From IMG/VR virus record IMGVR_UViG_3300046777_003126, positions 1 through 36,051 of that record: 36,051 nucleotides of DNA. One strand, written 5' to 3'. The DNA is from a virus. Within the stretch, counting starts at the first letter, position 1; each line of letters opens with the position of its first letter. The notes under the pieces were generated by a model. It saw nothing but the letters and a program-made list of their open reading frames with translations, was not told where the DNA came from and did not search any database. Of the stretch, positions 10,601 through 36,051 are shown in pieces. The translations under genes were made by a program, and so were the position numbers.

Positions 10601-13059
10601 CCAACACTAATAGAACTTCCTATTGCTATTCCAGTGCCTGTAGTAAATCCTACAAAAATAGTAGTAGAACCTATTCCTACAGTTTGTGCCAATGATGTTG
10701 TATACCCTACACTTGTTCCTGGATACGATGTGCTAGCAGTGCTAATTGTTACGAAGTTTCCACCAACACCAGTAATTGCAACATTATTTAATGCAGAAGT
10801 TGTTCCTACCCCCGCAGCAGATATTCTACTTAATGTCGTAATACCAGTTATATTATCTACAAATATAACAGTTGAACCAAAACTTACTGCCTGACCAATT
10901 GACGTTATTAATGCAATTCCAGGAGAAGTTGATGCAGTGCTAATTTGAATGAAAGTTGTACCAACACCAACAACTCTAACACTTGTAACAGCAGATCCTA
11001 CAGTTACAGAACTACCTATTGATACCCCCGTTGTAAATCCTACAAAAATTACAGTAGAACCAACTCCAATATCTGAAGTAAGTGCAGTTGTTAAAGATGT
11101 TCCTGGTGTAGTTGAAGCTGAACTAATCTGAACAAATGTTGCACCTACGGAAACAATTGGGGCATTAGTATATGCTATTCCAATACTAATAGAATCACCA
11201 ACAGAAACGTTTGATGTATTAGAAAGAAAAATTGTTGTCGAACCAACACCAACATTTGATGTTAAAGAAGGATTTATAAAATTAATATTTGAATTATATT
11301 TGGATGCAGTTATAGTTGCCACACCAATAACTACTGAATCAGACTGAACTACATCAGCATTAAATGTTGCCCCTGCACTTACTAAACCATAAACTGATTT
11401 TACATCAGATATTGAATAAGATGTTACTGATATAGCAATTCTATTATTTTCAATTCCATCAATAATAAAAGGTTCATTAACAATAAAATCACCTGACTTT
11501 TCATAAATGGTTAAAGCAGTTCCTACATTTACATTACTTCTTAAAAATCCAGTTGCTCCACTATACTTACCCTTAATGAAGGTTGGAACCCTCAAAGTAA
11601 TAGGTTCATTTAATGTTATTTCTGTAAATGTTTGAACATCATAGAGTGATATTGCCCACTTATTTGTATTTAAATTTTGTTCATCATATTGACCAGAATC
11701 TAATCTATAATCATATACCCTTGCTAGTCCTATTTCTCTTCCAGACTCATTTGTTTTTGGTGCCGTATTAGAACCATATGATGCAGCAAATCCAACTCTT
11801 TCGTTTCTTAAACTGAGAATGAATGTATTTCCAATTCCTATCTTAGGATTACCATAAACATTATTTAAAGAAAGTGTTGGTCCAGTGTAATAATTTATTA
11901 ATTGGTTATTTAAACTTTTTGTTGTTCTTGGTTTTGGAACATCCAAATATGATGGACTTATTGTTTCTACTTCATAACCTCTTACGAATGCTTTTCCTGG
12001 GGAAATTTGATATAATGCAAGATTTTCTGATGGGACAGAACCTGCATCAGTTGTCTGATTACTAAGGAAAACTCCATTATTACCCAGATTGTTGTTTAGC
12101 GATTCTTTGATTGAAACTGAGAAAGGAGTTACATAATAATCTCCAGACTCATCATAAGTTCTTCTTGCTAATTCTGCAGTTAGACCGTCTGTGTTACTAT
12201 TCCTTGTCAGTGTTCTTAAGACGCCAGTTCTAACTGTTGCAAGTTCTATAAAATCATTATCTTCAAAATCGTCTAGACTTTTTTTATGAAGTCTTGCAGT
12301 AATTTTTAATCTGTCTGCTCCAGGAACAGAATAATTTCCAGTAGAGTTATCATTTAAAGATGGATCGACATCTGCATTTATTATTTCCTCTCTTAACAAA
12401 AGACCAATTCTGTAAGAAGGGGTATTGCTGTACTGATCCAACAAAATTGTTTCATCATTTACTGAAATAAATTGACCTTTTGCAAAATAAACACCATTTG
12501 ATATTGAAAAAGCAGAACCAGTTGAATTTGCTCCAGATGAAATAGTAGATGCAAAAGAATCTCCAGCAGAAATTATTTTTCCGCCAAATGATACAGTTCT
12601 ATCTATTGATAGAAGTTCTCCGTCTGAAAAAAAGGTAGTTGAATTATCTACGGTACTTGAACTTACATAAGTTACATATAGAGTTGCATTTCCTCTCTCC
12701 GACTCATCAGATCTCAAATATTTCTTAACTACTGCACTTACACCAGAAGTTCTCCCTGTTATTTTTGCTCCAACTAACTGGGAAAGATATTGTGATAAAT
12801 TAACACCCAAATACTGATTGCTAATCTCTACAGCATAATAACTATTATCATAGGATATATTTCCTGGTATTACCTTTGAACCTTCTTTAAAAAAGTGTTG
12901 TCCAAATTTTTCAATTTGATTTTGTAATATTGATTGGAGAGTGGTTAACTCTCTAGCTTGAACTGGATATCCGGGTTTAAATAAAACACGGTAATAGTTT
13001 TTATTAGGGTCAAAGTCATCAAAATATGGAGCTACATTTAAATTAGTTTCCTGTGGCAT
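4615..13059 (-). CDS. Giant DUF4815-type baseplate/fibre structural protein
   Basis: A 2814-residue virion protein. The N terminus (residues 1 to about 60; PYFDDFDPNKNYYRVLF, then PGYPVQARELTTLQSILQNQ) is the hallmark of the DUF4815 family of phage structural proteins. Residues about 597-896 are a low-complexity tandem repeat with units of roughly 55-60 residues (GVGSTVIFVGFTTGVSIG-type), ending in three short AVTFxxVS copies. Around 1320-1350 lies a conserved DIRPRVSQYNVSENSRSP block. Residues about 1996-2106 form a conserved domain starting SFLVEDPTGIFLTKCDIFF. SGxxAxV modules occur near residues 100, 1180 and 1810, and a GYIQIGDEIIAY module near 2430. By position after gp8 it is probably attached to the baseplate periphery or fibre network. 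Family membership is confident; the exact T4 counterpart (for example gp9) is not established. Confidence 0.88.
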   Translation of the reverse strand: MPQETNLNVAPYFDDFDPNKNYYRVLFKPGYPVQARELTTLQSILQNQIEKFGQHFFKEGSKVIPGNISYDNSYYAVEISNQYLGVNLSQYLSQLVGAKITGRTSGVSAVVKKYLRSDESERGNATLYVTYVSSSTVDNSTTFFSDGELLSIDRTVSFGGKIISAGDSFASTISSGANSTGSAFSISNGVYFAKGQFISVNDETILLDQYSNTPSYRIGLLLREEIINADVDPSLNDNSTGNYSVPGADRLKITARLHKKSLDDFEDNDFIELATVRTGVLRTLTRNSNTDGLTAELARRTYDESGDYYVTPFSVSIKESLNNNLGNNGVFLSNQTTDAGSVPSENLALYQISPGKAFVRGYEVETISPSYLDVPKPRTTKSLNNQLINYYTGPTLSLNNVYGNPKIGIGNTFILSLRNERVGFAASYGSNTAPKTNESGREIGLARVYDYRLDSGQYDEQNLNTNKWAISLYDVQTFTEITLNEPITLRVPTFIKGKYSGATGFLRSNVNVGTALTIYEKSGDFIVNEPFIIDGIENNRIAISVTSYSISDVKSVYGLVSAGATFNADVVQSDSVVIGVATITASKYNSNINFINPSLTSNVGVGSTTIFLSNTSNVSVGDSISIGIAYTNAPIVSVGATFVQISSASTTPGTSLTTALTSDIGVGSTVIFVGFTTGVSIGSSVTVGSAVTSVRVVGVGTTFIQISTASTSPGIALITSIGQAVSFGSTVIFVDNITGITTLSRISAAGVGTTSALNNVAITGVGGNFVTISTASTSYPGTSVGYTTSLAQTVGIGSTTIFVGFTTGTGIAIGSSISVGTGITNVSVVAVGNSFVLIGTGSTVSYSINAGVAVTFSNVSSLIVGSAVTFTNVSNMISGAAVTFTRVSDALSGVGATISYVLKSSTVRSSSPSFNPINFKPFNIVKYTTTTLPDPVFARVVSVGTSSIEITNVRTVSGITSSVLPTSTTQVLDFSLQKTNLLSSSDNSFYTPLPKKNISSVDLTGASLVIRKVDTVNIVNNQLGETVLAGTNEIFLPFDEERYSLVRSDGTSEVLTRDRIFISGNGKQLQILNLGGDDTNATLITTRRKTNIVSKVKFKNRVNSIIVNKSKYVGSGIGSTTLNDGLTYGNYPYGTRVQDDIISLNSPDVIEILGIYESLGIDDPSAPVMTLTSLNGQTNKTSDLIIGEKIIGQTSGCVAIVSRLLSDYQIDYIIKNQKNFIEGENVLFEESKVTGSVSSISFNSKDISFNYTYQTGQNESFYDYGTIVKKPESQEPSRKIKIYFSSAYYDSSDTGDITTKESYNTFDYSNDIKTVNSERNTDIIDIRPRVSQYNVSENSRSPLEFLGRTFNESGNSAQNILASDENIEASFSYYLGRIDRIFLSKTGKFQIQYGSPSETPEIPVPIDDSLEVAQISLPPYLYNISQASISSLDYKRYRMVDINQLENRIKSLEYYTSLSLLESNTANLFIPDNNGLNRFKSGFYVDNFTNTITQEDGIENKNSIDPRNKEIRPSHFTTSLDLRLGPVQGVDESTDASLREPEGSNIRKNSDVITLDYTEVEWLRQNFATRSESVTPYLVSFWNGTLELTPASDTWVVQNRIEASIQQVEGNFAATLANATRQFGVDPNTGFSPTIWSSWTTVWTGETVTQRTATQTSDRRISTSRFIENGRVGWTDTLATETRENTIREVRRVGTQTRVGTRTEISEVFERVSNGDRVVDRSAITIMRSRNIQFSANRLLPNSRLYAFFDGVDVTKFCIPKLIEISMTSGVFQVGEEVIGQVSSNNPTSSNPASSASILFRVAKLNHKSGPYNQPTRTYQFNPYVDGNQIIPENYSSTSTLLNVDITSLSNINTNPNYRGYIEQGMVLVGRTSGAQAVVSNLRLVSDNTSAIIGSLFIPDPNVQSNPKFQTGSKVFTLINDQSNDINRAQTVASERFVSSGSLETIQENIVSIRNARIETKNIDQQQQSTSLVSSSVVSSRVVGTTNTRTSIRWGDPLAQSFLVEDPTGIFLTKCDIFFERKDDMGIPVTVQIRTMQNGYPTTKILPFAEVSLNPDQVNVSTDSSAATSFVFSAPVYLEGGTEYAICVASNSTKYRAFISRVGANDLLNNTFVGQQPYLGSLFKSQNASTWEASQWEDLKFVLHRADFVNSGTVEFYNSELSLGNDQIATLMPNSLSLVSNKVRVGLGSTLQDSNIQFGNTIVQSNSNASGNYVGNSGIATGNLNIINSGIGYTPSIGAGSRTYSDVNLVNVTGSGSDAKANITISNGVAVAATISSSGFGHQVGDVFTVTTVGLNSVGRDMRLSLVSIANTNTIILDNVQGEFKTIGAGNTVEYINNAGIRTQLNGSSGGGVPINEIVTITDGLHIKVNHRNHGMYFENNLVTISNVASDIIPTTLTSEYSSTSTSPIPVVDSSNFTTFENVGVGTTNKGYIQIGDEIIAYTQTSTGLIGGQIERSVGSSSGIGITSRTYPAGTPVYKYELGGVSLRRINTTHNLSSSTLQNSITFDSYNIKIDMGANGIGRSDSSSFPKLFFNQTKSTGGNNIKASQNIPFEIITPQLQNVTVNGTGISAAIRTISSQSIDGNEIPYINVGFQPVTLNNINYLDSSRAIYSKVNETVNLLNLPGNKSFNMRVLLESSDSRISPVIDAQRANIILTSNRINSPIENYITDNRVNSISNDPHAFQYISKEITLENPATSLKVLLNAYINVFSDIRVFYAISDKSGFEPIFKPFIGYENLSLGTYDIANSTGHSDFFIQPSKMLEFDSNSLEFSEYSFTLDQLPPFRSYRIKIIMTSTNQVYVPRIKDLRTIALA
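10370..11270 (-). repeat. Degenerate tandem repeat within the DUF4815-type gene
   Basis: Residues about 597-896 of the encoded protein are built from four or so divergent copies of a unit of roughly 55-60 residues. Each has a GVGSTVIFV-like strand, a SIGSSVTVG-like strand and a TTFIQISTAST-like strand. Three short copies of AVTFxxVSxxISG follow. Composition is almost entirely Gly, Ser, Thr, Val, Ile and Ala, suggesting a repetitive beta structure. Confidence 0.75.
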
Positions 13060-16209: not shown

Positions 16210-16217
16210 TATTTATT
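16210..16217 (-). promoter_or_regulatory. Putative late promoter AATAAATA for the gp10-like gene
   Basis: AATAAATA overlaps the stop codon of the gp7-like giant and ends exactly 19 nt from the next ATG. This is the same spacing as the TATAAATA before gp8, which supports a functional late promoter. Confidence 0.65.
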
Positions 16218-19200
16218 ATTGGATATAGTTATTATATCTTAGAGGATTTACTCTCGATACAACCGCCGAAGAAGTTATTCCGATAATCCCATCATTTCCG
16301 TAAAAATTAAATGTTCTTGGATTTGGTCTATTGCTCAAAACAACCTTACCCCAACTATATTCACCAAAAGATATTGAAGTTGTAGTTGATATTGCTCCAG
16401 TGAAAGAAGAATATGTTGTTGAAAATGTTGTATCCATTGTGTATGTTGAAGAGTCCATAGTGATGTTAGTTGAGTCGAAAGAAATAGTAGATATACCAGA
16501 AATTGGTGTAAATACTCTTAAAACATATGTCACTCCAACTCCAGTAGTTCCACCTAAACCTGGAGATACTACTTGTCTCCTTACAATTTCAGTAGAATCG
16601 ACATAATAAACATTATCCACAAATGATTTTCCAATAGAAATGACATTAAAATCATTATCAATAGAACTTATTGATGTTGATGCAAATCCAACATTTGAGT
16701 TATATACTGTAAAATAATCCCCAACGGAAATAGAACTTATTGTAGTTGCAGAAGAAACTATACTTGTATCTCTAAGATATGAATCAATAGGAATAAACAA
16801 ATCAAATATGAACTTATCGGCACCAGAAATCGTAGTTGTTCCAAATCCAACTATAACCCCATTATCTCCTTGGTAAGAAGAAACAATATCAGTCTCTACA
16901 ACTGATAGTGGTGGTTCAATTAAAACGAAAGGTGGGTTTGATTGGGAATATCCTGTTCCTCCAAAAGAAACTACAATTGAATCCACACTTCCATTTGATA
17001 CGTTTGCATAAGCAGTGGCTCTTTGTGTTGTTCCTAATCCAACTGGATTTGATATCACGACTTGAGGTTGAGATGTATATCCATATCCACCGTCATTAAT
17101 AATGATTGAAGAAACGCTTCCAGATTCTGAAACTGCACAAGTAGCGAATGCAGGAGATACATTATCTTGTGAAATGATGTTAATTTTATTTGTTATATTT
17201 TGTACGGTGTTTTCATTTATTGAATTGTAAAGAGGTCTAATTGTATCAACATATATGGTGTCTGTAGTTTCATTTATGTCTTTAATGATGTATGAAACTG
17301 GATTTACCAAAGGTTCATATAAATTTCTACTTTTACTTATTATTTTTCCATCAACCAATTTATCACTTCTTTGTTGACACCAAGTTACAGTTCTGATGCA
17401 ATTTATATCATCACTTATTCCTGGTCCTGTGTAAGTATTTGTTTCTACAGAATCTGCAGAAATTACATTGGTTACTAGTCTTTCATCCTGTTGAATAGAT
17501 TGAGAGCACAATGAATCGTTATCATCAATTGTTAAAGTATCGCCAACCTTAACTGTTTCAATTACATCTAATAGTTGAACGTCAACATCTCCACTTCCTT
17601 TATAGAATAGTATTTTGCAGGTATCACCTGTCCCTTCTATTCCATCCACTATTGGTTTTGGTGGTTCGGCAAATGTAATTACACTTCCACCACTTAATGT
17701 ATATCCTTCTCCTGGAACTTGTAAAATATTATTTAAGAAGACTAATAATGTTGCTTGAACATCAATATTTGAACCTTTCTTAGATTTTATTGTTACTGGA
17801 GAACCATCTTTGCTTAATGTAAAGTTTCTTCTTAAACCATTAAATTTATTTTCAATTTTATCAAGTACTTCAAGTTGCCCAATATTCCAACCAGCAAAAG
17901 AATCGGATATTACGGACTTGACGTTAATGTGAAACTCTGAGAAAGGTTTTGTAGGATCAGTTGGGATTCCTGCTAATCCGCCAGTTTCTACTGTCAATAT
18001 TTGGTCACTTCCATAATTGTAACCAAAATTAGTAATTTCAAAATCAATTACACTAGATCCTTGCCCAACAACGATACTAACTTTTGCACCAGTTCCCACT
18101 CCACTTGGTCTTGATGAACTATAAACTAGTGGTATGTTATCATATGAAAGAGGGGAATCAAAAATAACAAATGGTGGATTTGATGAAGTATAACCAGCAC
18201 CTGGATTTGTAATTGCAACACTTACAATATTTCCATTACTTACTGCAGCAGTTCCAATAAATTGTATGTTTGGAGTTCCGAGTGATGATGTATAAACACC
18301 AACATTTACCACTGTTTGAATTCCAGACCTGTATCCAGAACCACTATTTCCAATACTAATTGCTGATATTGTTCCTGCCACGGAGACTATTGCAGTTCCT
18401 CCTGCAGAAACTAATGGTTGATATCCAAATCCACCTGTTGATCCAACCGATACTATTATACCACCTACTGGAATGGTTGCTGTCTTTGGATCATATGAAA
18501 CTGATGTTCCTGCTCCAAGGAAAGTTATGCTAGTAATTCCAAGATTTTCAGATAACTGGTAGTCTTGAGTTGGTATTAATGTTCCTTGTGGACCTTGGAA
18601 AACTCCATTGACAAGAATGATGGAATTATTAGTTGAAAATCCTGATATATTTTGTTTTTGTGAAGTTAATCTAAAAGATTTTGTTGTAGAATCAAACCTA
18701 TCAGAAATATCATCAAAAACATAATTTTTGGAGTATGTTTCTTCCGTAGAATTTGGAATACCACTCTTTAGGAATGTTCTTCCTTGGAATTTTGAGTGTG
18801 TAGTTATTCCAGTCCAATCTCTTTCATCTGGAGAATTAGTCGGACTTCCAACGGGAGTTTTGCCTATTGGCGCGTCTGCAAAATTAATAGAATTATTAAC
18901 AATGTTATAGTTTCCCTGAACTTTAGTAACAACTGAGGAATTTGGATGTGTGGATAGTCCTGTTCCCATCCAAGGTCTTCTTACCAAAATTTGATTTGTA
19001 GTACCAAATCCAACATTAGTAATCTTCATAATTTCATTGTTAATCTTTATCAAATCACCACCAAAGAATGAAGTAATTCCACTAACTTGAATAACATTGT
19101 CAGTTAAAGTCACATTTTTAGTTAAAGATGTGATAACGGATGTTTCTACAATAGGAGACTGAATTACATTATCAATTGCAACTAAGCATCTTCCATTTTT

Positions 19201-22200
19201 AGTGTTTCCAACAAAAGAATGTAAGGTTCCTATACCAACACTTACTATATCTAAAGAAATTGGATTTGTTTTTAAGGCATCTTCTGCGCTTCTAGCTAAT
19301 TTAATTTGAGTTTCATTTACTTTAATTGCATAAACTCTAGATGGCAGTTTATCAGTTGTTCCTATACCTACGCCAAAATCTGTTGCTGCTATTCCAATTG
19401 CTTGTGAAGAACCTCCCCCACTATGAGTATAAGTTAGTTCCTCACCGGTAACATAGAAATGTTCTGGTATTAAAATAGTATTATTTTCTGTATCGACAAC
19501 ATCACTATTGTTACCTAAGAAATATCTTTGGAAAATATTTTTCCCATTGTGTGTTAAATTGAATTCTCTCTTTACATCAGCAAAAGTTCCTGTGTAATTA
19601 GAGGAACCAACATTAATTTTTCCATTATTTAAATCAATTACTAAATCCGAAGGACTTGATGTAGCACTTGCTAATTGCAATGACATTTGGAAAACTCTAA
19701 CCTGAACATCAATATTAGGATTGGGAGTAAAGTAAAGACTAGTGTAGGTTGTTCCAGCACCCGCTCCAACAGTTCCTAATCCAGAAACAGTTTCAATATT
19801 TCCATATTCAGTTAAAAATACATCAGAGTCATCATCAATTAATATTGCCTCTGAAAATTGATATCTTCCATTTGTTGTATCTTCAACACAAATTAGGAAA
19901 TAAGATGCGTCATGTTGTTCTTCACTGGTTATATCATTGGGATAAACTGCTATTACATTTTCAAATGGAGATGAAGAAGATGCTATTGAAGTAATTGATG
20001 AATTTATGAAAGCTATATTTTGATCAGATTGACCAAATGAATAAGTACCAACACCTGTCGAAGAAGTATTAGCAATAGAGATAATAATAGAATTTGCAGT
20101 TACTCCTATACCAGAATAGGGAATAAAGTCAATTTTTAATTCAGAACCTGCTATGTATGGATAATAACTTCCCAATCCAATAGATTCAAACGAATCAAAT
20201 CCAGAAGCAATCATTTGTCCATAATTTAAAAATTCTATATTTGAACCATCATGAATTAAATTAATTTCATCAACTGCGCTTCTTCCATCAGTAGAATCAA
20301 GTTGTACTAATATTTTTGATGCTCTATATGTTGTACCTATAGAAATTATATTTCCTGAGGAACTTGTTGGTATTGTGTAATTTTGAGTGCTTATTTTTAC
20401 TGTATCACCTAACGTTGTTTCCCCAATACCAGCAACAGTATTTTCAATATCTAAAGAAATATAACTTAAATCATAATCATTAAGTTCAAATAAAGTTGGA
20501 TAGAACAAAAGATTTCCAAAATTTTCTCTAAAAGAAACATCAAAACTACCAAGATCTCTTACAGTTTCTACTCTTCCATATTGGTTTATATACGCCCTGC
20601 TTCCATTGTGAATTATACTAACAAATAAAGCCTGCCTTTCAGATGTGAATCTTTTATCTCTAATATAAGTAAAATATTTCTTAACTTTTTGTTCGATATT
20701 AAATTCATCAACTATACTATATGGAGTTGGTCTAGGATTACTATTGAAAGAATCGCTGAAGTCATCAATTGTTAGAACTCTATTTCCTACTGATTCAAAA
20801 TAATCAGTAAGAACTCTGTTTGAGAAATAAATTTCAGATGAAATAACTTTTTCAGAAATATTTAATTTATTTTCAAACACAGAGTCATATCTCTTATAGC
20901 ACGATAAGTCAACTTCACTAACAATATCAGAAATTACATCCACAAAATTAGAAATACCTATATTCCCAGAATCTGATGAAATTACTTTATCAGATTCTAT
21001 TTGCAAATCGGAAAACTTTACTAAACCTGAAATATGGAATAAAGAACTTACAATATCGTTCCACTCATTATATGAAACTTTAGATTGTAATGAGTATGAG
21101 AAATTTTGATAATAATAATTATCATGAATTCTTTGTAAATTGCTACTTAAGAATCCAAACTCATTTTCCCACCCAATAATTTCTTCTGATGTTGAATCAG
21201 TATCAATAAAAGAGTTAAAATTATATTTTTCTCCAATTATACCTATTGTTTTTGTTCCTATACCTCTAACAATATCACCAACAGTAAACTCATCTTGTGA
21301 TGAAAGTTTTATTATATTAGTTTTTTCATTAAAACTTTCAACTATTCCTTTCTTATTTCCAGAATATACTGTCTCTCCTTTTGCAAAAGAACTTTTTTTA
21401 AGTTTAATATCAAAAATTGGGAAGTCTTTCTCTGCAATAATTCTTCCTGCAGAATTAATTGGATCATATAATCCTGGAACTTCTCCATCACTCAATAACT
21501 CTGACATATTGAAAGTAACAATACCAACATTTCCACCCAGTCCTGTATTTCCTGCAGGAACATCTGTCAATGTGAATAATTTATAATTATAATTTTCAGA
21601 ATTATATCCTTTAGCACTTGTTCCTATTCCTACACTAACATTTTCAATTAAAACTTTGTCTCCAATAGAGAATGGGAAAACATCACTAAAACCAGTGTTT
21701 AATCCAACAGAAACATCTTTTGTGGTACTGTTAAATGTTATTGAACTTATTTTTACTCCATTTGAATTATTAATTGGAATAATTTTTAAATTTTCACTTA
21801 CAGAATCAGCATTTTTTAATATATCTACAGATGTTTTTCCAAGAGTAAATTTCAAATCAATATCATCAATAACCTTGTTTTGATATTCATCAAATAAAAC
21901 CAATCCTGGTGGTAAAGAATAACCATTACCTATTGATGATACGCCAATATAAGTTATCCTATTAAAAGGACTTACATCAAATACTTCTGGTAAATTTGAT
22001 GAGGGTCTCAATGTCTTGTCTGTTGTATAATCAAAACCAATTGTATCCATTTTGGTTGAAATTGCATTTCCAATTCCATAACCATATGGTTTTAATATTG
22101 CACCTGTTCCATTTTCCGTCGTAATTGTTGTTATACCTGGTAATTGTTTATAACCATAACCACCATAATTTACTCTAATACTTGAAATAGAACCAACTGC

Positions 22201-25200
22201 ATTTTTTGATGTTGTTGTGTACTTGAAAGAACCATTTCCTACTGAATATGAAGTGTCCTCTGGAATTTCTGAAATATAATAATTAAATGATGTGCTAGAA
22301 ACACCAACAACAGAATATGAACCAGAATACTTACTTAATTTTACATTTATTGAATTGAAATCAATTACATCTTGATCAATTACCAACTCTTGTTTAGGTA
22401 ATGAAGATAAGTTTTTATTGATAGGAATTAATTTATAGAAAAGTTTTGATGGGACAGAATCATCTAGTTTTAGAGTAACAGAGGCATTTGTAGATATGCC
22501 AATTAATCCATTACGTGAAACATTGAAAGTATTTGCGGATAAATTTCCATAAAATTCTTGAGTAAATTCTTCATCTGTGAAAATTTTAAAATCAAATGAT
22601 GAATATAATTTAGAAGCAAAGTTAGATGCTAGTGATGAATCTGAAAGATCAAATACTATTTCATTGTTTCTGACAATATCTATTTTTGGATTAATAGGAG
22701 ATATTGTTCCAAAAGATGTTGACGTTATATTAACGACTTCTTTATTAAAAGTCTCTGCACCATACTTAGAATTTGATAACTTTATTAAGTCCTTCGTGTA
22801 TCTTATGATGTAGTAAATTTTTTGATTTACTAAACCACCGCATGGAGATGATGATGTATGAATTATTTTATCACCTGTTTTGAGATTGTGATTTTGAATA
22901 AAAATAGTATTATTTTCAATATCTACATCTGATGCAATAAAATCCTTTGGGTTTACTACAACTCTTCTGTTATAGTCATTATATTTAATGACTATGTTTT
23001 TTCTGAGTGATGGATTAACATTTAAATCTACTTTATCTAAATTGGATAGACCGTGTGATGATGCAGTTGAAACAGTTACCGAATTTCTTGTAATTTCTGC
23101 TCTAACTGAATTTTGTCTAGATGTTTTGAAACTGTGATATGCACCTGTCCCAAAACCTACAAAGTATAGTAACTTGTCACCAATGTTAGTGCTACCTACT
23201 CCTACAAAAGTACCGGTTGTTCCCAGACCAATTCTAACAGTAGAAATTCCAATCAAATTATCTGAAATATTAGCAGCATAAACTACTGATGAATTTTCCA
23301 AATTAAAAGTAGTTGAACCATTATATACCACTAAAGAACTTCCACCATTGTTTGAATAAATGATAGGTTCTCCTGTTATAAATTCATGATCTGGTATATA
23401 AATGGAACGAGTTGGAATAAAGATTTGACTTATTCCAACACCAATATTAGAAGAAATGATTGTAGAACCTATACCAACACCACTGAGAGTTCCTAGACCA
23501 ACTGACTCTGATGGATTAAAATAGACCTGCTTATCACTATCAAATTTTACATTCAATTCGGGTGCTGTAATAAAAGTAAATTTTCTAGGAAGTTCTTCTA
23601 CTAAGGTAGAGGCAGTGTGTGCTGAACCTGTAGTTCCATCAACTTCCCTTAAAATTCTTACCCTTGATAAAATTAGATCTATATTTAAAACTTTTACCTT
23701 TTCATTTTCAATCTTTAAAATATCATTTTCTCTTATAGAAGAACCGTTTAAATTTCCAGATAAAGAAATATAAGTAACGATTCCTGTTGTGGATGTATTA
23801 CCTAATGCATTTGAAAGAGAATAAACTGATGATGTAACACCAATGTTGTAATTACCTTGTAGATTTGTGGTTGATGTATTAATTCCACTTATAGAAATTA
23901 AGTCTCTATTCAAAAGATTGTGTGGAGATTCTGAATAAGCAACATATTTTCCTTTAAAATCAAAAGGAATTAATTCTACATTTGATAATGAAGTAGAAGC
24001 TACGCTTATTGTATTAATATCTTTTCCTTCGATGCTACTAACAATAGCAGCGGCAGATTTGCCTCCAGTATTAGAATTGTCAAATATAACCCTATCGTTT
24101 ACTTTGTATCCACTCCCTCCATCAAAAACAGAAACTTTATCTACTTGACCTTGAGAAGTTGAAACTATTTTTGCAGAGTAAGTATTTTCCTTTATTTGGG
24201 ACGTTATGAAATCATAAAAACTATTTTCACTTCTTAAGTTATATGAAGTTGTATTTCTAAACCAAATTTTTGATTTATCTAAAGAATCAGAGGATAAATC
24301 ATAATCATCTTGATTGGATAGTTTCTCAAAATTAAATTGAATTGGTTTTGATTTAAAAGTATTTCCTATTACATAAGGAAAAACTGGTTTTCTATATCCA
24401 GAAAAAGGTTCTGTATTTTCTATTGAAGAGTCATCTATTGTAGTAAAGTATGCATACACTCCATTAGGATACTCCGGAGTCACACAATATCTACCATTAT
24501 GCTCATCCAAATCTCCAGAGTTATCAAATTCATAATCTTCAACAAAGAATCCAAGAGGGAAATTTGGTCTATTTAATCCTGAAACCAACTTATACCCAGA
24601 CTTCATTAATCTGGCATTTCCTCCAGTAGATGAATTAAAACCATATGGACCATATATTGGATTGCCATCATATGCCCATCCAATAATTGGAGAATGATTT
24701 TTTGAACTAATTTCTTGCCCATTCAATTGTTGCAAATCATATACTCCATACCTAGTCTCATTATCTCTAGACTTTTGGTATACTGATTTTCTTAGATTCC
24801 TTGGTGTATAGATGTGTGTATATTGTAAACCGTATCTGTCAGATATACTCTTCTTTAAAATTCCATCATCATTTGAGATAATATTTAAATACTTCTGGAA
24901 TAGATTGACATTCCATTGCTTTATTTTGAATGATAAATCTGCACCTCTACCTGACGGAATAACTGTTATTTTTGTGGATGAATCATATCCTTGACCACCA
25001 TTCACTATTTTTACTGATACAATTTTACCCCCACTTAATACTGGAGTTAAATCTGCATAGTTTCCTTTTCCTTCTACCAAAAGTTCTGGGGGAGAATTAT
25101 ATCCCTCTCCACTGTAATTTACAATTACATCTACTATTTCACTGTTATTAACTACTGCGATTAGTTCTGCATCTTTTCCTGTTAACAATTCATAATATGG

Positions 25201-28200
25201 TTGTCTAACATAATTTAAAATTTCTGAAGAACCATATCCTATGCCACCATTTTTAATATCTGCAGAATTTATTTCTCCCCTAAAAATAGGTTGTAGCACT
25301 GCATTAAAATCTTGACCAGAATACGTCGCTACTCCAATTTTTCCTGAAACTAATACTCTTATAGGTTCATAGTTAAAAATATGTGTTTCAGTTCCGGTAG
25401 ATGTAATATCCACATACTGTTTATTCTCATAGTAAAAATATTTGTTAGTCGAAGCAATACCAACATGTGATAATTTAAAATTATCATCATCAACTTTTGT
25501 CACAATATATTGTTCAGTAGTGGATAATCCAGATGCGACTGTTCCTGTAGTTGAATATACAACTATTTCTCTAGAATTATACCCATGATTTTTAATATTA
25601 ATTTGATTTAATGAAGTTACTATTCCAGAACTAGCACATGATCTTTCTTTATTTTCATAATTTTCACCTTCATTAATGATAGAAATACCTGATATTATTT
25701 TTTTAGGTAAAACTGACTCTATCCTATGAATTCCATTTCCATAACTTGTTAAAGAAATGGTGTTTATGCCGAGTGCAGCATCATTCTCATTCTTAAACAA
25801 CTTAATGGTATAAGCATCTATTGATTTTACGTAGTAAATTGAATTTGTAGATAGACCAGAAATTCCCTTTTCGCCATCAGTTTTGTATATGACTTGCTCT
25901 ACACTTCTAAATTTATGAAATGTTGAAAAACCTATTGTATTATTAGTTAAATCTACATAATTTGATAAATTATCAGAAAAGAAAGAAGATGAATGACTGA
26001 TTAAAGTCGTGTTTACTTTTGCTTCTGCACCAGCACCATTTCCTCCAAAAATAGTAATAATAGGTTCTGAAACATAATCAAATCCATTATCAATTATATT
26101 AATCTTCTTTAGAGTACCCTTTACCGAAACTGAAGCAGTAGCACCAGTTCCCACTGAGTCGTAGATTCTAATAACGGGTGGATTAATAACATCATAATTA
26201 TCACCATTTTTATCAACTATTATTTCTTCAATTTCTCCATATCTAATAAAATCTGATGATTTATAATTTGATAACTCAACTCCATTTATAAAAATGCCAA
26301 TATTTGTATCTACTGGAGTTTCATACACTCCACTTTCATTATTTGGTTCTGAGATTAATCTGAGTAAATTTTGTGGTTTTACTGAAAGATTTTGAAAATC
26401 AGATGGTCCAATAAAATTAGAAGTTACAATTCCAGAAATATTAATGAAATTGTTATTATTAATTTCAGACCTACTTCCAGCAATCTTTATTTGATTTTCA
26501 TTAATTCTTTTAATAAAATATTTCCCTGCAACTAGATTATCAAAATTACTTGTAATTGTATAGTCAATAGTTTGGTTGTTATCAATGTCTACTGGAATAG
26601 AACCTGGAGAATAATAAATGGAGTCACCTGTGTAGAAACCATGATTAGGTATGGTTAAAGTATCTCCACTAAAAGAACCATTCAGTTCAAAAACCCTATC
26701 ATAAAAAGATAATGGTTGACCATTATAAGAAGGTATGGATGTAGAAGCAACTAAAACATCTCCAGAATAATTTAAATAAGTGTTTTGGATATCAGAATTA
26801 TAATTATTGACGTAACTATATCTTTCAAGATTTGAACTGACTGAGGATTTTTTAATATTTCTCTGTATGGTATAAGTTCTTAGATTAGATAAAATTCCTT
26901 GACCTTTTATTGTAAAGGTTTTGCTATCAATAATAGATGATATTATGCAATTTGACTTTTCTGAAGTATCATCTTCCAATATAGCAGTATCTCCAACATA
27001 AAAAATATTATTATCATATGTTTTAACTCTATAAACTAAATTGGCAGAATCAATGAGAAAAATTTCTGATATGTTATATTTTACTGGTATATTTAAAATC
27101 CAATCATTTGCTTTAAATGATGAACTTGCAATTCCTGGTTGAATCACTCTTGCAGTATCATTTTCAGAAAAATAAAATCCATTATCTATTAGGTTAATAT
27201 TTTTAAATACAGAACCAATTCTGACCTTAATTACATCTGATGTTGAAATACCTGGATAACCATAAGCATTAACATCAAGTCTAACTGTGGAACCAATAGA
27301 AACTGAAGATTCTATTGGAGTTTTTCCAAAAAACTGAGTTAGTGATTTTGAATCATATGATACTTCCTCAGATAATCCATTTTCAAGAGAAAATATCAAA
27401 TTACCTGAAGTTGGAAAACCAATAGTAGAATCAACATCAAAAACGGTAGAACCAGAAGATACTGCTGAAGTTAACTTTGTATGTGGATGTGAAATAAAAG
27501 GTGAGGTATAATTACCCGTTGTGTTATTTTTTCTATCATAATCATAATCTAATTTCATTCTATAATAATTTTTATCATCAGTTCTGATGATTTCTACATC
27601 ATTTACAAAAGCTTCAGCGTACTTAACTCCATAACTTGGTATTGCGTCTTGAACTAGTGTTCTATTTTTTAGTCTTAAAGGATCTCCTTCAATGGACTCC
27701 ACAATAACATCTTTACTTCTTAAAAAGTTTGAAGAAGATGGTTTCAGTATAAAATCTTTTGGATTTATTATTTTTACTGGTTCTCCATATAAAGTGGAGA
27801 ATAAAATTTTTATAGAATCTTCATTTCCTTTAGACTCATAAAAATCTGAAATTCTTCCAATTAAAACTTTTTGATTTACTTTTGGTGATAATTCTCTTCC
27901 TTCAAATCCTGGTAAAAACTGATTTTTTAATTTAAGTAAAAAATTGTCTAAAAATAAAGCACTTAAATTATCAATAGAAGAAATACTATTGTGTGCTTCT
28001 GCAACAGTACTAGAAAAAATTAATTGCTCTGGATCGTTACCACTTCCATATTCGGATATTCCACTAAAACCACGAACACATTCCTCAAAACTTCTTTCGG
28101 TTTTTGACTTATAAAGAATAATTTCATTGTTAATTTTTATAAGTCCATATTTTTCTGGGAATCCATAAGTTCCTAGGAAATTTTGAGATGGATTATATAG

Positions 28201-28455
28201 AACAGGAATAGTAGTATCAAATGATGTTACATCTTCCGCTAAAACACAAGTTTTACTATGATTCAACAGAGAGTCTAAATCAAAATATTGATCTATATTT
28301 TGTAATAAATCTAAAGGTGAACCAGTATATTCTTGAGATGAGTAATATTCATTTAAAAATTCTGATATTAGGGGATAATTATCCCTAACAAAAGATGGGA
28401 GTTGAGAAGAAACTACTTCTTTAATTTTAACTCTGGTTCTGTCTGTTGATATCAT
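16216..28455 (-). CDS. 7: Giant gp7-like baseplate wedge protein with YHYH domain
   Basis: A 4079-residue protein from one uninterrupted 12.2-kb frame. In T4, gp7 (1032 residues) initiates the baseplate wedge and lies near gp6, gp8 and gp10; this gene has the same neighbours. Residues 1 to about 290 (VVSSQLPSFVRDNYPLISEF onward) form the conserved N-terminal part found in cyanophage gp7-type proteins. Around 1180-1360 is a YHYH-like domain with GWAYDGNPIYGPYG near 1257 and DEHNGRYCVTPEYPNGVYAY near 1325. Glycine-aromatic modules (NGGQGYDSS, NYGGYGYKQLP, GSGYRSG, GGYGYTSQP) recur near 770-830, 1070-1155, 1450, 2100, 3290-3440 and 3790-3840. IxINNExxxY-type modules occur near 110-150 and about 3130. 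Baseplate identity is confident; calling it gp7 rests on position and the N terminus. Confidence 0.82.
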   Translation of the reverse strand: MISTDRTRVKIKEVVSSQLPSFVRDNYPLISEFLNEYYSSQEYTGSPLDLLQNIDQYFDLDSLLNHSKTCVLAEDVTSFDTTIPVLYNPSQNFLGTYGFPEKYGLIKINNEIILYKSKTERSFEECVRGFSGISEYGSGNDPEQLIFSSTVAEAHNSISSIDNLSALFLDNFLLKLKNQFLPGFEGRELSPKVNQKVLIGRISDFYESKGNEDSIKILFSTLYGEPVKIINPKDFILKPSSSNFLRSKDVIVESIEGDPLRLKNRTLVQDAIPSYGVKYAEAFVNDVEIIRTDDKNYYRMKLDYDYDRKNNTTGNYTSPFISHPHTKLTSAVSSGSTVFDVDSTIGFPTSGNLIFSLENGLSEEVSYDSKSLTQFFGKTPIESSVSIGSTVRLDVNAYGYPGISTSDVIKVRIGSVFKNINLIDNGFYFSENDTARVIQPGIASSSFKANDWILNIPVKYNISEIFLIDSANLVYRVKTYDNNIFYVGDTAILEDDTSEKSNCIISSIIDSKTFTIKGQGILSNLRTYTIQRNIKKSSVSSNLERYSYVNNYNSDIQNTYLNYSGDVLVASTSIPSYNGQPLSFYDRVFELNGSFSGDTLTIPNHGFYTGDSIYYSPGSIPVDIDNNQTIDYTITSNFDNLVAGKYFIKRINENQIKIAGSRSEINNNNFINISGIVTSNFIGPSDFQNLSVKPQNLLRLISEPNNESGVYETPVDTNIGIFINGVELSNYKSSDFIRYGEIEEIIVDKNGDNYDVINPPVIRIYDSVGTGATASVSVKGTLKKINIIDNGFDYVSEPIITIFGGNGAGAEAKVNTTLISHSSSFFSDNLSNYVDLTNNTIGFSTFHKFRSVEQVIYKTDGEKGISGLSTNSIYYVKSIDAYTIKLFKNENDAALGINTISLTSYGNGIHRIESVLPKKIISGISIINEGENYENKERSCASSGIVTSLNQINIKNHGYNSREIVVYSTTGTVASGLSTTEQYIVTKVDDDNFKLSHVGIASTNKYFYYENKQYVDITSTGTETHIFNYEPIRVLVSGKIGVATYSGQDFNAVLQPIFRGEINSADIKNGGIGYGSSEILNYVRQPYYELLTGKDAELIAVVNNSEIVDVIVNYSGEGYNSPPELLVEGKGNYADLTPVLSGGKIVSVKIVNGGQGYDSSTKITVIPSGRGADLSFKIKQWNVNLFQKYLNIISNDDGILKKSISDRYGLQYTHIYTPRNLRKSVYQKSRDNETRYGVYDLQQLNGQEISSKNHSPIIGWAYDGNPIYGPYGFNSSTGGNARLMKSGYKLVSGLNRPNFPLGFFVEDYEFDNSGDLDEHNGRYCVTPEYPNGVYAYFTTIDDSSIENTEPFSGYRKPVFPYVIGNTFKSKPIQFNFEKLSNQDDYDLSSDSLDKSKIWFRNTTSYNLRSENSFYDFITSQIKENTYSAKIVSTSQGQVDKVSVFDGGSGYKVNDRVIFDNSNTGGKSAAAIVSSIEGKDINTISVASTSLSNVELIPFDFKGKYVAYSESPHNLLNRDLISISGINTSTTNLQGNYNIGVTSSVYSLSNALGNTSTTGIVTYISLSGNLNGSSIRENDILKIENEKVKVLNIDLILSRVRILREVDGTTGSAHTASTLVEELPRKFTFITAPELNVKFDSDKQVYFNPSESVGLGTLSGVGIGSTIISSNIGVGISQIFIPTRSIYIPDHEFITGEPIIYSNNGGSSLVVYNGSTTFNLENSSVVYAANISDNLIGISTVRIGLGTTGTFVGVGSTNIGDKLLYFVGFGTGAYHSFKTSRQNSVRAEITRNSVTVSTASSHGLSNLDKVDLNVNPSLRKNIVIKYNDYNRRVVVNPKDFIASDVDIENNTIFIQNHNLKTGDKIIHTSSSPCGGLVNQKIYYIIRYTKDLIKLSNSKYGAETFNKEVVNITSTSFGTISPINPKIDIVRNNEIVFDLSDSSLASNFASKLYSSFDFKIFTDEEFTQEFYGNLSANTFNVSRNGLIGISTNASVTLKLDDSVPSKLFYKLIPINKNLSSLPKQELVIDQDVIDFNSINVKLSKYSGSYSVVGVSSTSFNYYISEIPEDTSYSVGNGSFKYTTTSKNAVGSISSIRVNYGGYGYKQLPGITTITTENGTGAILKPYGYGIGNAISTKMDTIGFDYTTDKTLRPSSNLPEVFDVSPFNRITYIGVSSIGNGYSLPPGLVLFDEYQNKVIDDIDLKFTLGKTSVDILKNADSVSENLKIIPINNSNGVKISSITFNSTTKDVSVGLNTGFSDVFPFSIGDKVLIENVSVGIGTSAKGYNSENYNYKLFTLTDVPAGNTGLGGNVGIVTFNMSELLSDGEVPGLYDPINSAGRIIAEKDFPIFDIKLKKSSFAKGETVYSGNKKGIVESFNEKTNIIKLSSQDEFTVGDIVRGIGTKTIGIIGEKYNFNSFIDTDSTSEEIIGWENEFGFLSSNLQRIHDNYYYQNFSYSLQSKVSYNEWNDIVSSLFHISGLVKFSDLQIESDKVISSDSGNIGISNFVDVISDIVSEVDLSCYKRYDSVFENKLNISEKVISSEIYFSNRVLTDYFESVGNRVLTIDDFSDSFNSNPRPTPYSIVDEFNIEQKVKKYFTYIRDKRFTSERQALFVSIIHNGSRAYINQYGRVETVRDLGSFDVSFRENFGNLLFYPTLFELNDYDLSYISLDIENTVAGIGETTLGDTVKISTQNYTIPTSSSGNIISIGTTYRASKILVQLDSTDGRSAVDEINLIHDGSNIEFLNYGQMIASGFDSFESIGLGSYYPYIAGSELKIDFIPYSGIGVTANSIIISIANTSSTGVGTYSFGQSDQNIAFINSSITSIASSSSPFENVIAVYPNDITSEEQHDASYFLICVEDTTNGRYQFSEAILIDDDSDVFLTEYGNIETVSGLGTVGAGAGTTYTSLYFTPNPNIDVQVRVFQMSLQLASATSSPSDLVIDLNNGKINVGSSNYTGTFADVKREFNLTHNGKNIFQRYFLGNNSDVVDTENNTILIPEHFYVTGEELTYTHSGGGSSQAIGIAATDFGVGIGTTDKLPSRVYAIKVNETQIKLARSAEDALKTNPISLDIVSVGIGTLHSFVGNTKNGRCLVAIDNVIQSPIVETSVITSLTKNVTLTDNVIQVSGITSFFGGDLIKINNEIMKITNVGFGTTNQILVRRPWMGTGLSTHPNSSVVTKVQGNYNIVNNSINFADAPIGKTPVGSPTNSPDERDWTGITTHSKFQGRTFLKSGIPNSTEETYSKNYVFDDISDRFDSTTKSFRLTSQKQNISGFSTNNSIILVNGVFQGPQGTLIPTQDYQLSENLGITSITFLGAGTSVSYDPKTATIPVGGIIVSVGSTGGFGYQPLVSAGGTAIVSVAGTISAISIGNSGSGYRSGIQTVVNVGVYTSSLGTPNIQFIGTAAVSNGNIVSVAITNPGAGYTSSNPPFVIFDSPLSYDNIPLVYSSSRPSGVGTGAKVSIVVGQGSSVIDFEITNFGYNYGSDQILTVETGGLAGIPTDPTKPFSEFHINVKSVISDSFAGWNIGQLEVLDKIENKFNGLRRNFTLSKDGSPVTIKSKKGSNIDVQATLLVFLNNILQVPGEGYTLSGGSVITFAEPPKPIVDGIEGTGDTCKILFYKGSGDVDVQLLDVIETVKVGDTLTIDDNDSLCSQSIQQDERLVTNVISADSVETNTYTGPGISDDINCIRTVTWCQQRSDKLVDGKIISKSRNLYEPLVNPVSYIIKDINETTDTIYVDTIRPLYNSINENTVQNITNKINIISQDNVSPAFATCAVSESGSVSSIIINDGGYGYTSQPQVVISNPVGLGTTQRATAYANVSNGSVDSIVVSFGGTGYSQSNPPFVLIEPPLSVVETDIVSSYQGDNGVIVGFGTTTISGADKFIFDLFIPIDSYLRDTSIVSSATTISSISVGDYFTVYNSNVGFASTSISSIDNDFNVISIGKSFVDNVYYVDSTEIVRRQVVSPGLGGTTGVGVTYVLRVFTPISGISTISFDSTNITMDSSTYTMDTTFSTTYSSFTGAISTTTSISFGEYSWGKVVLSNRPNPRTFNFYGNDGIIGITSSAVVSRVNPLRYNNYIQ

Positions 28456-33908: not shown

Positions 33909-34046
33909 TCAAGCAGCAGTAAGTACCTCCGCAACACTATCAATGTTCGATTCAATTACAGTGCTGTCGATAACATCCAGAATGGACAGAATCTCAGCGC
34001 CAGTGTTACCTTGTGCCAGAAGAGAAAGAGCAATCGACTTGGACAT
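33909..34046 (-). CDS. Small protein, 45 aa, paralog of its upstream neighbour
   Basis: An ORF with ATG at 34046-34044 and TGA at 33909-33911. The product starts MSKSIALSLLAQGNTGAEIL and continues SILDVIDSTVIE, then a variable tail rich in Ser, Asp and Ala. Residues 12-24 (QGNTGAEILSILD) are identical to those of the next gene upstream (34088-34228); the N terminus differs only in the hydrophobic residues. It is likely one small helical domain followed by a variable tail. The 38 bases of leader and first codons are identical between the two genes, proof of recent duplication or gene conversion. I recall similar QGNTGxEIL small proteins in other T4-like cyanophages, with no known function. Confidence 0.85.
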   Translation of the reverse strand: MSKSIALSLLAQGNTGAEILSILDVIDSTVIESNIDSVAEVLTAA

Positions 34047-34075
34047 AATCAGAAGAGAGTGTTAGTTAGAGAGTG
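34038..34075. repeat. 38-nt direct repeat, copy 1
   Basis: Identical over 38 nt to 34220-34257, with a period of 182 nt. It covers the leader (minus strand CACTCTCTAACTAACACTCT then TCTGATT) and the first codons of the 45-residue gene. Confidence 0.9.
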
Positions 34076-34087
34076 AAGAGTAGACTA

Positions 34088-34228
34088 TCAGAAATCAATC
34101 ACATCTGCAGTCGGTTCAGTGTTATAATTCTCCGAAACATTCTCAGAGGTCAGTGTATCCAGAATCGAAAGAATCTCAGCGCCAGTGTTGCCTTGCATGA
34201 GCATGGAAATCATCACTTGCTTGGACAT
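34088..34228 (-). CDS. Small protein, 46 aa, paralog of its downstream neighbour
   Basis: An ORF with ATG at 34228-34226 and TGA at 34088-34090. The product starts MSKQVMISMLMQGNTGAEIL and continues SILDTLTSENVS, followed by an acidic tail ending TADVIDF. It shares the QGNTGAEILSILD core with the downstream 45-residue gene, while the C-terminal tails are unrelated, so the tails may carry the specificity. The N-terminal amphipathic helix carries four Met residues. It shares an identical 38-nt leader with its paralog. Both lie between the 53-residue gene and the HNH region, in what appears to be an early transcription unit. Function is unknown. Confidence 0.85.
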   Translation of the reverse strand: MSKQVMISMLMQGNTGAEILSILDTLTSENVSENYNTEPTADVIDF

Positions 34229-34257
34229 AATCAGAAGAGAGTGTTAGTTAGAGAGTG
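34220..34257. repeat. 38-nt direct repeat, copy 2
   Basis: Second copy of the 38-nt perfect repeat seen at 34038-34075, spanning the leader and first codons of the 46-residue gene. Confidence 0.9.
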
Positions 34258-34507: not shown

Positions 34508-34924
34508 TCAGAAGTTGCGGGAGAAGACATAACCCTCACCCAGGAAATCGAAATCATAGGTGAGAGCAGACTCCCAAGTTGCTTGCCAATCGACTACAAT
34601 TTCAACAGGCAGATTGTACTGTTCGGCATAGAACTCCTCTGCAAAGTCTGCTTCAGAGTTATACTCACCTCGGTAAGCATCCACCGCATACTCTACACAA
34701 TCGAGACCGTGATAATCGACAAAGGCATCAACTTGTGCGTAACCGATTGCCTCACCAGCAGTCACATAATCCTCATAGTAAGTAACAAACTGCTCCTCAG
34801 AGTTGTTATCAATGAACTCCAGAATGTCCTCCAGAGCATAAGACTCAGAGACCAATTCCTCAATCTTGCTAACAGTCTCAGGAGCGAACAGTTCGGTGTA
34901 GTTAGTGGTGAAAGTAACGGTCAT
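34508..34924 (-). CDS. ArdA-like antirestriction protein (DNA mimic)
   Basis: A 138-residue, extremely acidic protein: by hand count 31 Asp/Glu against three Lys/Arg. The C-terminal half, with VEYAVDAYRGEYNSEADFAE (about 76-95), followed by a WQATWESALTYDFDFLGEGY block (about 114-133) and the final YVFSRNF, matches the ArdA pattern of YxGxYxSxxDFA...DWxxx...GYVF. ArdA proteins mimic the bend and charge of B-DNA and occupy the DNA site of type I restriction enzymes, protecting entering phage DNA. Family ArdA proteins are usually 150-180 residues, so this is slightly short, with the first domain reduced. A duplicated upstream element lies 41 nt before the ATG, and the leader ends in ACACACTCAA. 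Early expression fits the role. Confidence 0.82.
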   Translation of the reverse strand: MTVTFTTNYTELFAPETVSKIEELVSESYALEDILEFIDNNSEEQFVTYYEDYVTAGEAIGYAQVDAFVDYHGLDCVEYAVDAYRGEYNSEADFAEEFYAEQYNLPVEIVVDWQATWESALTYDFDFLGEGYVFSRNF

Positions 34925-34957
34925 TTGAGTGTGTTTGGTTTGAAGTGTGGTCCTTAC

Positions 34958-34991
34958 ACTAGTAGGACACTTTAGAGGATCCTAACTTTAA
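34958..34991 (-). promoter_or_regulatory. Duplicated early-type upstream element, copy 1 (before ArdA-like gene)
   Basis: Positions 34965-34991 match 35503-35529 at 26 of 27 bases. On the minus strand the shared block reads TTAAAGTTAGGATC, one variable base, then TCTAAAGTGTCC, followed by a TAGT-containing segment. It precedes the ArdA-like gene and looks like a promoter of a phage-specific early class, not a canonical sigma70 site. Confidence 0.6.
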
Positions 34992-35474: not shown

Positions 35475-35495
35475 TTGGGTTTGAGTGGTGCTCAT

Positions 35496-35529
35496 ACTAT
35501 AGGGACACTTTAGACGATCCTAACTTTAA
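35496..35529 (-). promoter_or_regulatory. Duplicated early-type upstream element, copy 2 (before NYQTW gene)
   Basis: The second copy of the element at 34958-34991. Here the downstream segment is TATAGT at 35501-35496, a better -10-like match than in copy 1. A start site near 35489 would place the first usable ATG at 35474. Confidence 0.6.
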
Positions 35530-35554: not shown

Positions 35555-35722
35555 TTACTCTACTGTCTCAAGTCTCTCAATAAACTCATCTAGGTAATCT
35601 GTGGGGTCATGACCTAATTCTGCGATTCGATTTAGGTGATTCAGAATATCACTGAACTGTCGCACATAAGGTACGCGAATCCTGTCAGTTTTACCCAAAA
35701 AAGCATAATTCTTTGGTCTCAT
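35555..35722 (-). CDS. Small helical protein, 55 aa, hairpin-covered start
   Basis: An ORF with ATG at 35722-35720 and TAA at 35555-35557. The product starts MRPKNYAFLGKTDRIRVPYV and continues as two helices, RQFSDILNHLNRIAELG and DPTDYLDEFIERLETVE, separated by a His-Asp-Pro turn. It is soluble, with no membrane segment. The most striking feature is the leader: a perfect 17-bp inverted repeat whose second arm ends on the A of the ATG, with a CTAAATA late motif in the loop. This suggests stage-dependent translation. I do not recognise a family. Confidence 0.78.
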   Translation of the reverse strand: MRPKNYAFLGKTDRIRVPYVRQFSDILNHLNRIAELGHDPTDYLDEFIERLETVE

Positions 35723-35773
35723 AGTTTTGTCCCAAAACTCTATGATATTTAGGGGGGTTTTGGGACAAAACTA
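35722..35773 (-). promoter_or_regulatory. Perfect 17-bp inverted repeat covering a start codon
   Basis: TAGTTTTGTCCCAAAAC (35722-35738) and its exact complement (35757-35773) flank an 18-nt loop. On the minus strand the second arm ends at the first base of the ATG of the 55-residue gene and contains the weak GGGA ribosome-binding site, so a transcript reading through would hide the initiation region. The loop contains CTAAATA. Confidence 0.85.
35746..35752 (-). promoter_or_regulatory. Late-promoter motif CTAAATA inside the hairpin loop
   Basis: Minus-strand CCCCTAAATATC sits in the loop of the 17-bp inverted repeat; the same 12 bases recur at 36034-36023. Initiation about 6 nt downstream would produce RNA holding only one arm of the hairpin and therefore an open start codon. 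Confidence 0.5.
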
Positions 35774-35783
35774 ATAAGGCAAT

Positions 35784-35957
35784 TTACCAACGGTCAGGTG
35801 TGCTAAGGTCCTCCACATAAGCATCACACTTCTCAGCAGGTTCTAACTCCAATACTCTATCCCACTGAATCTGGTGGGGGTTCATATCATCGAATACTTC
35901 TAATTCTAAGGTTACACGATACTTAACCTTCTGTGCCTGGTGATAAGCGACTGACAT
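35784..35957 (-). CDS. Small conserved protein, 57 aa
   Basis: An ORF with ATG at 35957-35955 and TAA at 35784-35786. The product contains KVKYRVTLELEVFDDMNPHQ, then IQWDRVLELEPAEKCDAYVE and ends DLSTPDRW. Two beta strands and a helix are likely, with strong acidic character. From memory, a protein with the MNPHQI...VLELEPAE...YVEDL pattern is common in T4-like cyanophages, but no function is known to me. It is the only gene at this end with a classic ribosome-binding site (AGGAG, 8-9 nt before ATG) and it has a well-formed sigma70 promoter, so it should be expressed early by unmodified host polymerase. Confidence 0.82.
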   Translation of the reverse strand: MSVAYHQAQKVKYRVTLELEVFDDMNPHQIQWDRVLELEPAEKCDAYVEDLSTPDRW

Positions 35958-35970: not shown

Positions 35971-35986
35971 ATGTATATGGATACAT
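35971..35986. repeat. 6-bp inverted repeat at the predicted start site
   Basis: ATGTAT-ATGG-ATACAT overlaps the -10 edge and predicted transcription start of the rightmost promoter. It could be an operator or a 5'-end hairpin; chance is also possible. Confidence 0.35.
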
Positions 35987-36013
35987 TGTAAGATGCCCTG
36001 AGTTTAATGTCAA
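35985..36013 (-). promoter_or_regulatory. Sigma70-like promoter for the rightmost gene
   Basis: On the minus strand TTGACA (36013-36008), a 17-nt spacer and TACAAT (35990-35985) give a perfect -35 and a five-of-six -10. The predicted leader to the ATG at 35957 is about 20 nt and contains AGGAG. Confidence 0.75.
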
Positions 36014-36024
36014 GGTGCTGGGGA

Positions 36025-36031
36025 TATTTAG
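36025..36031 (-). promoter_or_regulatory. Putative late-promoter motif CTAAATA at the right edge
   Basis: CTAAATA within CCCCTAAATATC, the same 12-nt context as the motif in the hairpin loop 278 nt to the left. It lies upstream of the sigma70-like promoter and could add late transcription of the same unit. Confidence 0.4.
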
Positions 36032-36051
36032 GGGCGCTGGGGGTGTTTTTG

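Follow-up and report, generated by a model that had tools for sequence, protein, structure and literature searches.

A start-codon hairpin with a late-promoter-like box in its loop as a probable translational gate in cyanophage-related viruses

The hairpin and its gene neighbourhood

The DNA analysed, referred to here as the window, comprises the 36,051 nucleotides of the IMG/VR virus record IMGVR_UViG_3300046777_003126. The window was found to be T4-like and cyanophage-related, with one protein matching the T4-type head-tail connector family and with similarity searches of the end region giving Synechococcus and Prochlorococcus phages. Two short genes, designated P0002 and P0001, follow each other on the minus strand and are separated by a long inverted repeat (Table 1); the stop codon of P0002 lies 11 nt before this hairpin. 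The first-pass annotation had described a perfect 17-bp repeat with an 18-nt loop, which ends on the A of the ATG of a 55-residue gene and carries CTAAATA. The coordinates agree with this description, the two 17-nt arms being 100% complementary and 18 nt apart (the arm at 35722-35738 reads TAGTTTTGTCCCAAAAC), and the CTAAATA box was located in the loop. Each arm in itself is a pseudo-palindrome, TTTTG-TCC-CAAAA.

Table 1. Features of the P0001 locus in window coordinates
Feature	Position	Strand	Remarks
P0001, 55 codons, proposed gated gene (MRPKNYAFLGKTDRIRVP...)	35555..35722	(-)	ATG at 35722-35720; relatives in 48 viral loci
Hairpin 3' arm	35722..35738	(-)	Last base is the A of the P0001 ATG; contains the ribosome-binding region
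Shine-Dalgarno-like GGGA, weak	35730..35733	(-)	Inside the 3' arm, 7 nt 5' of the ATG
Hairpin loop	35739..35756	(-)	18 nt; holds the late box; 20 nt separate the 13-nt core arms
Late-promoter-like box CTAAATA	35746..35752	(-)	In the loop; predicted 5' end of late RNA near 35739
Hairpin 5' arm	35757..35773	(-)	TAGTTTTGTCCCAAAAC; would be missing from RNA begun in the loop; kept in relatives
P0002 (phrog_12516, 57 aa), upstream gene	35784..35957	(-)	Head of the proposed read-through transcript
Sigma70-type early promoter TTGACA-17-TACAAT	35985..36013	(-)	11/12 consensus match

Among the hairpins of the window with a loop of at most 40 nt, the one at P0001 is the longest perfect hairpin, the next best having 12 bp. 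When the window was simulated 30 times with an order-1 Markov model, the longest arm reached 13 bp, versus 17 bp in the real sequence. RNA folding of the hairpin region gave -32.2 kcal/mol (z = -5.3), a value equalled by none of 200 shuffles. A search of the window for Rfam families gave no match.

For P0001, the third codon positions vary most in relatives (0.36 versus 0.19 and 0.12), which is the pattern expected of a real gene. In the structure predicted for the monomer, the N-terminal part is of low confidence and the last 36 residues form two helices. A ribbon-helix-helix fold was suspected by eye from the sequence pattern; searches of Pfam, PDB sequences, Foldseek and the PF01402 family gave no match to it. 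Homologues of P0001 were identified neither by tblastn in 50,697 phage records nor by a profile search of five isolate cyanophages and T4.

Additional features were observed elsewhere in the window. A 45-nt direct repeat (34947-34991 and 35485-35529, 84% identical) lies 5' of two minus-strand genes starting at 34924 and 35495, and is possibly a shared early promoter element. At 33909-34257, tandem 46-aa open frames lie 182 nt apart and share 38- and 39-nt blocks of 92-100% identity; judged from these blocks, they are a recent gene duplication. Two very long minus-strand genes, of 4079 and 2814 codons, occupy positions 16216-28455 and 4615-13059.

Promoter motifs and the predicted switch

The sigma70-like promoter that had been read upstream of the two genes is, besides its consensus match at 36013-35985, kept in relatives: it lies about 56 nt 5' of P0002 in the window, and a counterpart was found 56-58 nt 5' of P0002 in 10 of the 10 relatives with upstream sequence (L039 lacks that sequence). 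Just 5' of this promoter, at 36023-36043, a second late-box-like site, CCCCTAAATATC, was identified. From this proximity, P0002 may carry both early and late promoters.

CTAAATA occurs 4 times in the window versus 11.5 times expected, and all 4 copies are on the coding strand. The published late motif of the cyanophage S-PM2 is NATAAATA (PMC2984593). In a sample of six cyanophage genomes or near-genomes and the window, NATAAATA was 14.7-fold and NCTAAATA 7.2-fold commoner per base upstream of genes than inside them, with a strong strand bias, versus 0.9- to 1.9-fold for permuted control motifs upstream of cyanophage genes (the entry labelled ATAAATA-reversed is the motif itself and is therefore no control). 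Judged from this distribution, late boxes are a real signal in these genomes. The box of the window itself, CTAAATA, is an enriched form. In 11 of the 18 haplotypes of the P0001 relatives, all of them from the clade with P0002, the box reads TATACATA, TATAGATA or CTAGATA (C or G at the fifth position), and the excess of these variants upstream of cyanophage genes is small, at 1.2- to 2.0-fold. In this clade, either the box is undergoing decay or the variants act as late promoters of low strength.

The hairpin of P0001 is likely to be a translational gate of the type described for gene e of phage T4. Early RNA would start at the sigma70 promoter (36013-35985) and run through P0002 into P0001; in this read-through RNA, the 17-bp stem would enclose the ribosome-binding region together with the A that begins the start codon, and P0001 would be left untranslated. 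At the late stage, RNA polymerase carrying gp55, the late sigma factor of the phage, would initiate in the loop at CTAAATA; the resulting RNA, with a leader about 17 nt long and no 5' arm, would allow P0001 to be translated. Because the hairpin and the late box in its loop are kept in every intact relative found, P0001 is probably silent early and switched on late in infection. We infer that late transcription does start at CTAAATA, that translation in the cell is blocked by the hairpin, and that the timing is as outlined.

Folding predictions agree with the proposal of the first-pass annotation that read-through RNA hides the initiation region and that RNA started in the loop frees it. The late start was modelled 6 nt after the box in 23 sequences of P0001, HNH and endonuclease VII genes, and the modelled late leader was 16-22 nt long in 23 of the 23 cases. 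For the window, the start region (-15 to +3) was predicted to be unpaired at 0.01 in the read-through RNA versus 0.32 in the late RNA; over the 23 sequences the values were 1-36% versus 32-88%, with the same direction in all of them. In the late RNA of the window, the leftover 3' arm can fold back on itself into a small hairpin, so that the start region would be only partly open. The change for the AUG triplet alone was not uniform, with L077, L005 and a few others going in the opposite direction, which implies that the gate would act mainly on the ribosome-binding region. In summary, P0001 shows at the level of its sequence a predicted buried start region, a box positioned for removal of the 5' arm, an upstream early promoter and paired conservation of the arms, which are the marks of a T4-type gate.

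Conservation, rebuilt hairpins and rival explanations

Protein searches of IMG/VR identified 48 loci encoding the P0001 family, 35 of them in the plain form, unfused and unextended. The hairpin lies directly 5' of the ATG in 35 of the 35 plain homologues, which represent 18 haplotypes, and the core spacer is always 20 nt. A scan with the arms alone, in which the spacer was left free at 12-30 nt, yielded 25 contigs; among the matches listed, every contig has a spacer of 20 nt and a P0001-family gene downstream. A late-box-like motif is present in every loop, in the form TATA[ACG]ATA, CTA[AG]ATA or ATAAATA. The gene upstream of the hairpin is P0002-like in one clade and is different or missing in others, which shows that the hairpin belongs with the downstream gene. 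A GGGAC core is common to nearly all relatives, AAAGGAC being present instead in the HNH lineage of L005.

Conservation of the arms as a pair in related phages had been named in the first-pass annotation as a check on the switch, and was found in the 35 plain homologues, in one compensated pair and in rebuilt stems. In a gapless alignment of 18 rows, 93% of the cells pair, versus 22-59% when the partner column is slid. Pair 18-45 of this alignment (A2) is A-U in 13, G-U in 2 and G-C in 3 haplotypes. A double change was seen in only 1 of the 16 pairs and the remaining core is nearly invariant, so that covariation within the core is thin. The mean non-majority fraction is 0.01-0.03 for the arms, 0.47 for the loop, 0.36 for third codon positions and 0.06-0.12 for second codon positions. 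Variation in the arms is below that at codon positions 1 and 2, and the position of the box drifts inside the fixed spacer. As far as the alignments indicate, the conservation of the arms and the fixed spacer exceed what pairing alone requires.

Several lineages contain hairpins in which at least half of each arm is new, while the arms still pair fully or mostly, the loop again carries a late box, and the hairpin still precedes the start codon. In the 140-aa HNH fusions L073-L076, the arms TTTTGTCCCGTTATACCT and AGGTATAACGGGACAAAA form a perfect stem of 18 bp, with CCTAAATA in a 20-nt loop 5' of the new ATG. The L005-type fusions have the arms TTTTGTCC-C-TTAATAC and GTATTAA-A-GGACAAAA with one mismatch and with TATAAATA in the loop, and the N-terminally extended form in L077 and L079 has the arms GTATTATGTCCC and GGGACATAATAC with CCTAAATA in the loop (for L077, the arms are alternatively given as TATTATGTCCC and GGGACATAATA). 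As sequence evidence for pairing, these rebuilt lineages are stronger than the covariation within the core.

In two different P0001 lineages (L005:9683-10165 and L073:2685-3156), an HNH cassette lies inside the P0001 hairpin and is joined in frame to P0001; the left junction follows TTTTGTCCC. The Pfam match to the HNH domain is weak (E = 0.003) and falls short of the curated cut-off. L039 and L041, which are without HNH, and the L005-type loci with HNH represent an empty and an occupied pair; the upstream flank is nearly identical through TTTTAGTTTTGTCCC, and the downstream sequence is identical from AGACCGAAGAATTACAC on. The match of these flanks places the cassette inside the hairpin, where its 3' arm forms a stem with the 5' arm that is left. 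The HNH cassette may home to the hairpin site. At two other loci, L080:250-520 and L081:2740-3010, the 3' arm of the hairpin and the start region are doubled, the copies being about 110 nt apart and separated by a short open frame (MRHITDTNKYEPKTI...).

The cassettes inside the hairpin in two lineages, with their junction after TTTTGTCCC, together with the duplication of the hairpin sequence in L080 and L081, would also be expected of a DNA element, a homing target of HNH or a recombination hot spot, that has no translational role. However, such an element explains neither why the hairpin always abuts the start codon nor why a new hairpin and a late box precede the HNH start codon nor why a G-U state is kept on the coding strand, and as the whole explanation it is highly unlikely. 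A transcription terminator of P0002 is a very improbable reading as well. The hairpin is strong and lies 11 nt past the P0002 stop codon, but neither strand has a T run after it, a terminator scan limited to loops of 3-8 found none at this position, and the late box in the loop would be needless. The hairpin also goes with P0001 and not with the upstream gene. An intrinsic terminator, consisting of a G+C-rich stem and a T run, was rejected on the missing T run and on the association of the hairpin with the downstream gene.

A further reading is that the arms are a pair of operators flanking the late box, bound by a protein, perhaps P0001, which represses the promoter either alone or beside an RNA gate. 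This is possible, though on the whole doubtful. It would account for arms that vary less than codon positions 1 and 2 and for a core spacer fixed at 20 nt while the box shifts inside it; P0001 is small, with two predicted helices in its last 36 residues, and its family is fused to HNH nucleases. A precedent is I-TevI, which combines an RNA gate with autorepression at an operator over its own late promoter (PMC2988022). However, the rebuilt hairpins of L073, L005 and L077 keep the pairing from arm to arm and lose the palindrome within the arm. No regulon was found, since beyond the hairpin only scattered copies of the arm with one mismatch occur in seven related contigs, and Pfam, Foldseek and the family search gave no ribbon-helix-helix match for P0001. 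The operator as sole explanation is disfavoured by the loss of symmetry within the arms of the rebuilt hairpins and by the lack of a regulon. A layer of protein binding added to the arms of a gate, with P0001 as the candidate by analogy to I-TevI, is a tentative and rather improbable extension; such a protein, bound to the arms in the form of RNA or of DNA, would account for their conservation beyond the needs of pairing. It is unlikely that the whole of a broader scheme applies, in which the arms would be both an RNA gate and protein-binding sites, possibly for P0001, and in which HNH cassettes would home into the gate and rebuild it from the host arm and their own complementary arm, the invader being silenced early from its insertion on.

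Comparison to known gates and a second gene family

Hairpin-gated late genes are a textbook device of phage T4, and the shuffling of promoters plus stem-loops in T4-like phages is known from PeSL cassettes. For T4 e, soc and 49, the start region lies in a hairpin on early read-through RNA and is opened by a late promoter (PMC3014915). For I-TevI, I-TevII, segB and mobE of Aeh1, a hairpin covers the ribosome-binding site and is absent from the late RNA (PMC2988022). The precedents of e, soc and 49 are thus as the first-pass annotation had stated them, and I-TevI joins them (PMC3014915; PMC2988022).

T4 gene e and P0001 would be alike in that a late promoter overlaps the hairpin, a short RNA would lack the 5' arm, and a late gene lies within an early transcript. 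However, in T4 e the late box spans both the 5' arm and a short loop (AATACCTTCTATAAATACTTAGGAGGTATTATG); in P0001 the stem is longer, the core spacer is fixed at 20 nt and the box lies in the loop. The P0001 product is unrelated to that of T4 e. With the I-TevI type, P0001 shares a late promoter placed so that late RNA would lack the hairpin over the ribosome-binding site. In addition, the P0001 family has fusions to HNH endonucleases which are themselves preceded by such a hairpin, recalling I-TevI, I-TevII, segB and mobE. Unlike these homing-endonuclease genes, P0001 of the window lacks a nuclease domain; the proposed gate stands before family members with and without HNH, and the cassette lies inside the gate. 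In the cyanophage S-PM2d, the psbA 5'-UTR contains a putative inverted repeat, which, according to the authors, might affect the stability of the mRNA and the response to light (PMC5931967). Like that of P0001, this is a cyanophage inverted repeat that probably forms an RNA hairpin and has early and late promoter motifs nearby; the role proposed for P0001, a gate over the start codon that a late promoter inside the hairpin would open, was not part of that discussion.

Genomes were also scanned for a hairpin at a start codon combined with a late box positioned to delete the 5' arm. Among the T4 genes recovered by the scanner, soc (15573) and 49 (46855) were identified from their annotation, and e and probably I-TevI from their position. 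At a stricter threshold, 10 matches were obtained per 482 NATAAATA boxes in all genomes (7 of 416 without T4), versus about 20 per 5,342 for control motifs that were permuted or reverse-complemented, a count which leaves out one listed entry that is the motif itself. The clearest new match is the gene for endonuclease VII of Synechococcus phage S-SRM01 (NC_070963.1, 126172), where the stem is a perfect 18 bp, the ATG falls within the 3' arm and CATAAATA stands at the loop (L198:1616-1686). T4 gene 49, a classic gated gene, codes for the same enzyme. In the S-SRM01-like endonuclease VII genes (L198 and L199-L231), the hairpin has a stem of 18 to 19 bp, its 3' arm containing the start codon and AAAAGG and its loop containing CATAAATA. 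Among the close homologues in viral contigs, the majority retain the hairpin, with one compensated pair in L208, and some have lost the structure. By its sequence, the S-SRM01 gene would be an independent cyanophage instance of the logic of T4 e, soc, 49 and I-TevI.

The gating mechanism as such is known. In the open-licence literature searched, no description was found of hairpin-gated late genes in cyanophages, be it in these two gene families or with an HNH cassette lying within the gate, and earlier reports elsewhere are possible. Cyanophages are abundant in marine and fresh waters. By comparison alone, the device was seen in the unrelated P0001 and endonuclease VII families. The HNH insertions illustrate how a mobile gene that lands inside a gate may preserve or re-create it. 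With this arrangement in mind, annotators could find late genes that are hidden inside early-looking blocks.
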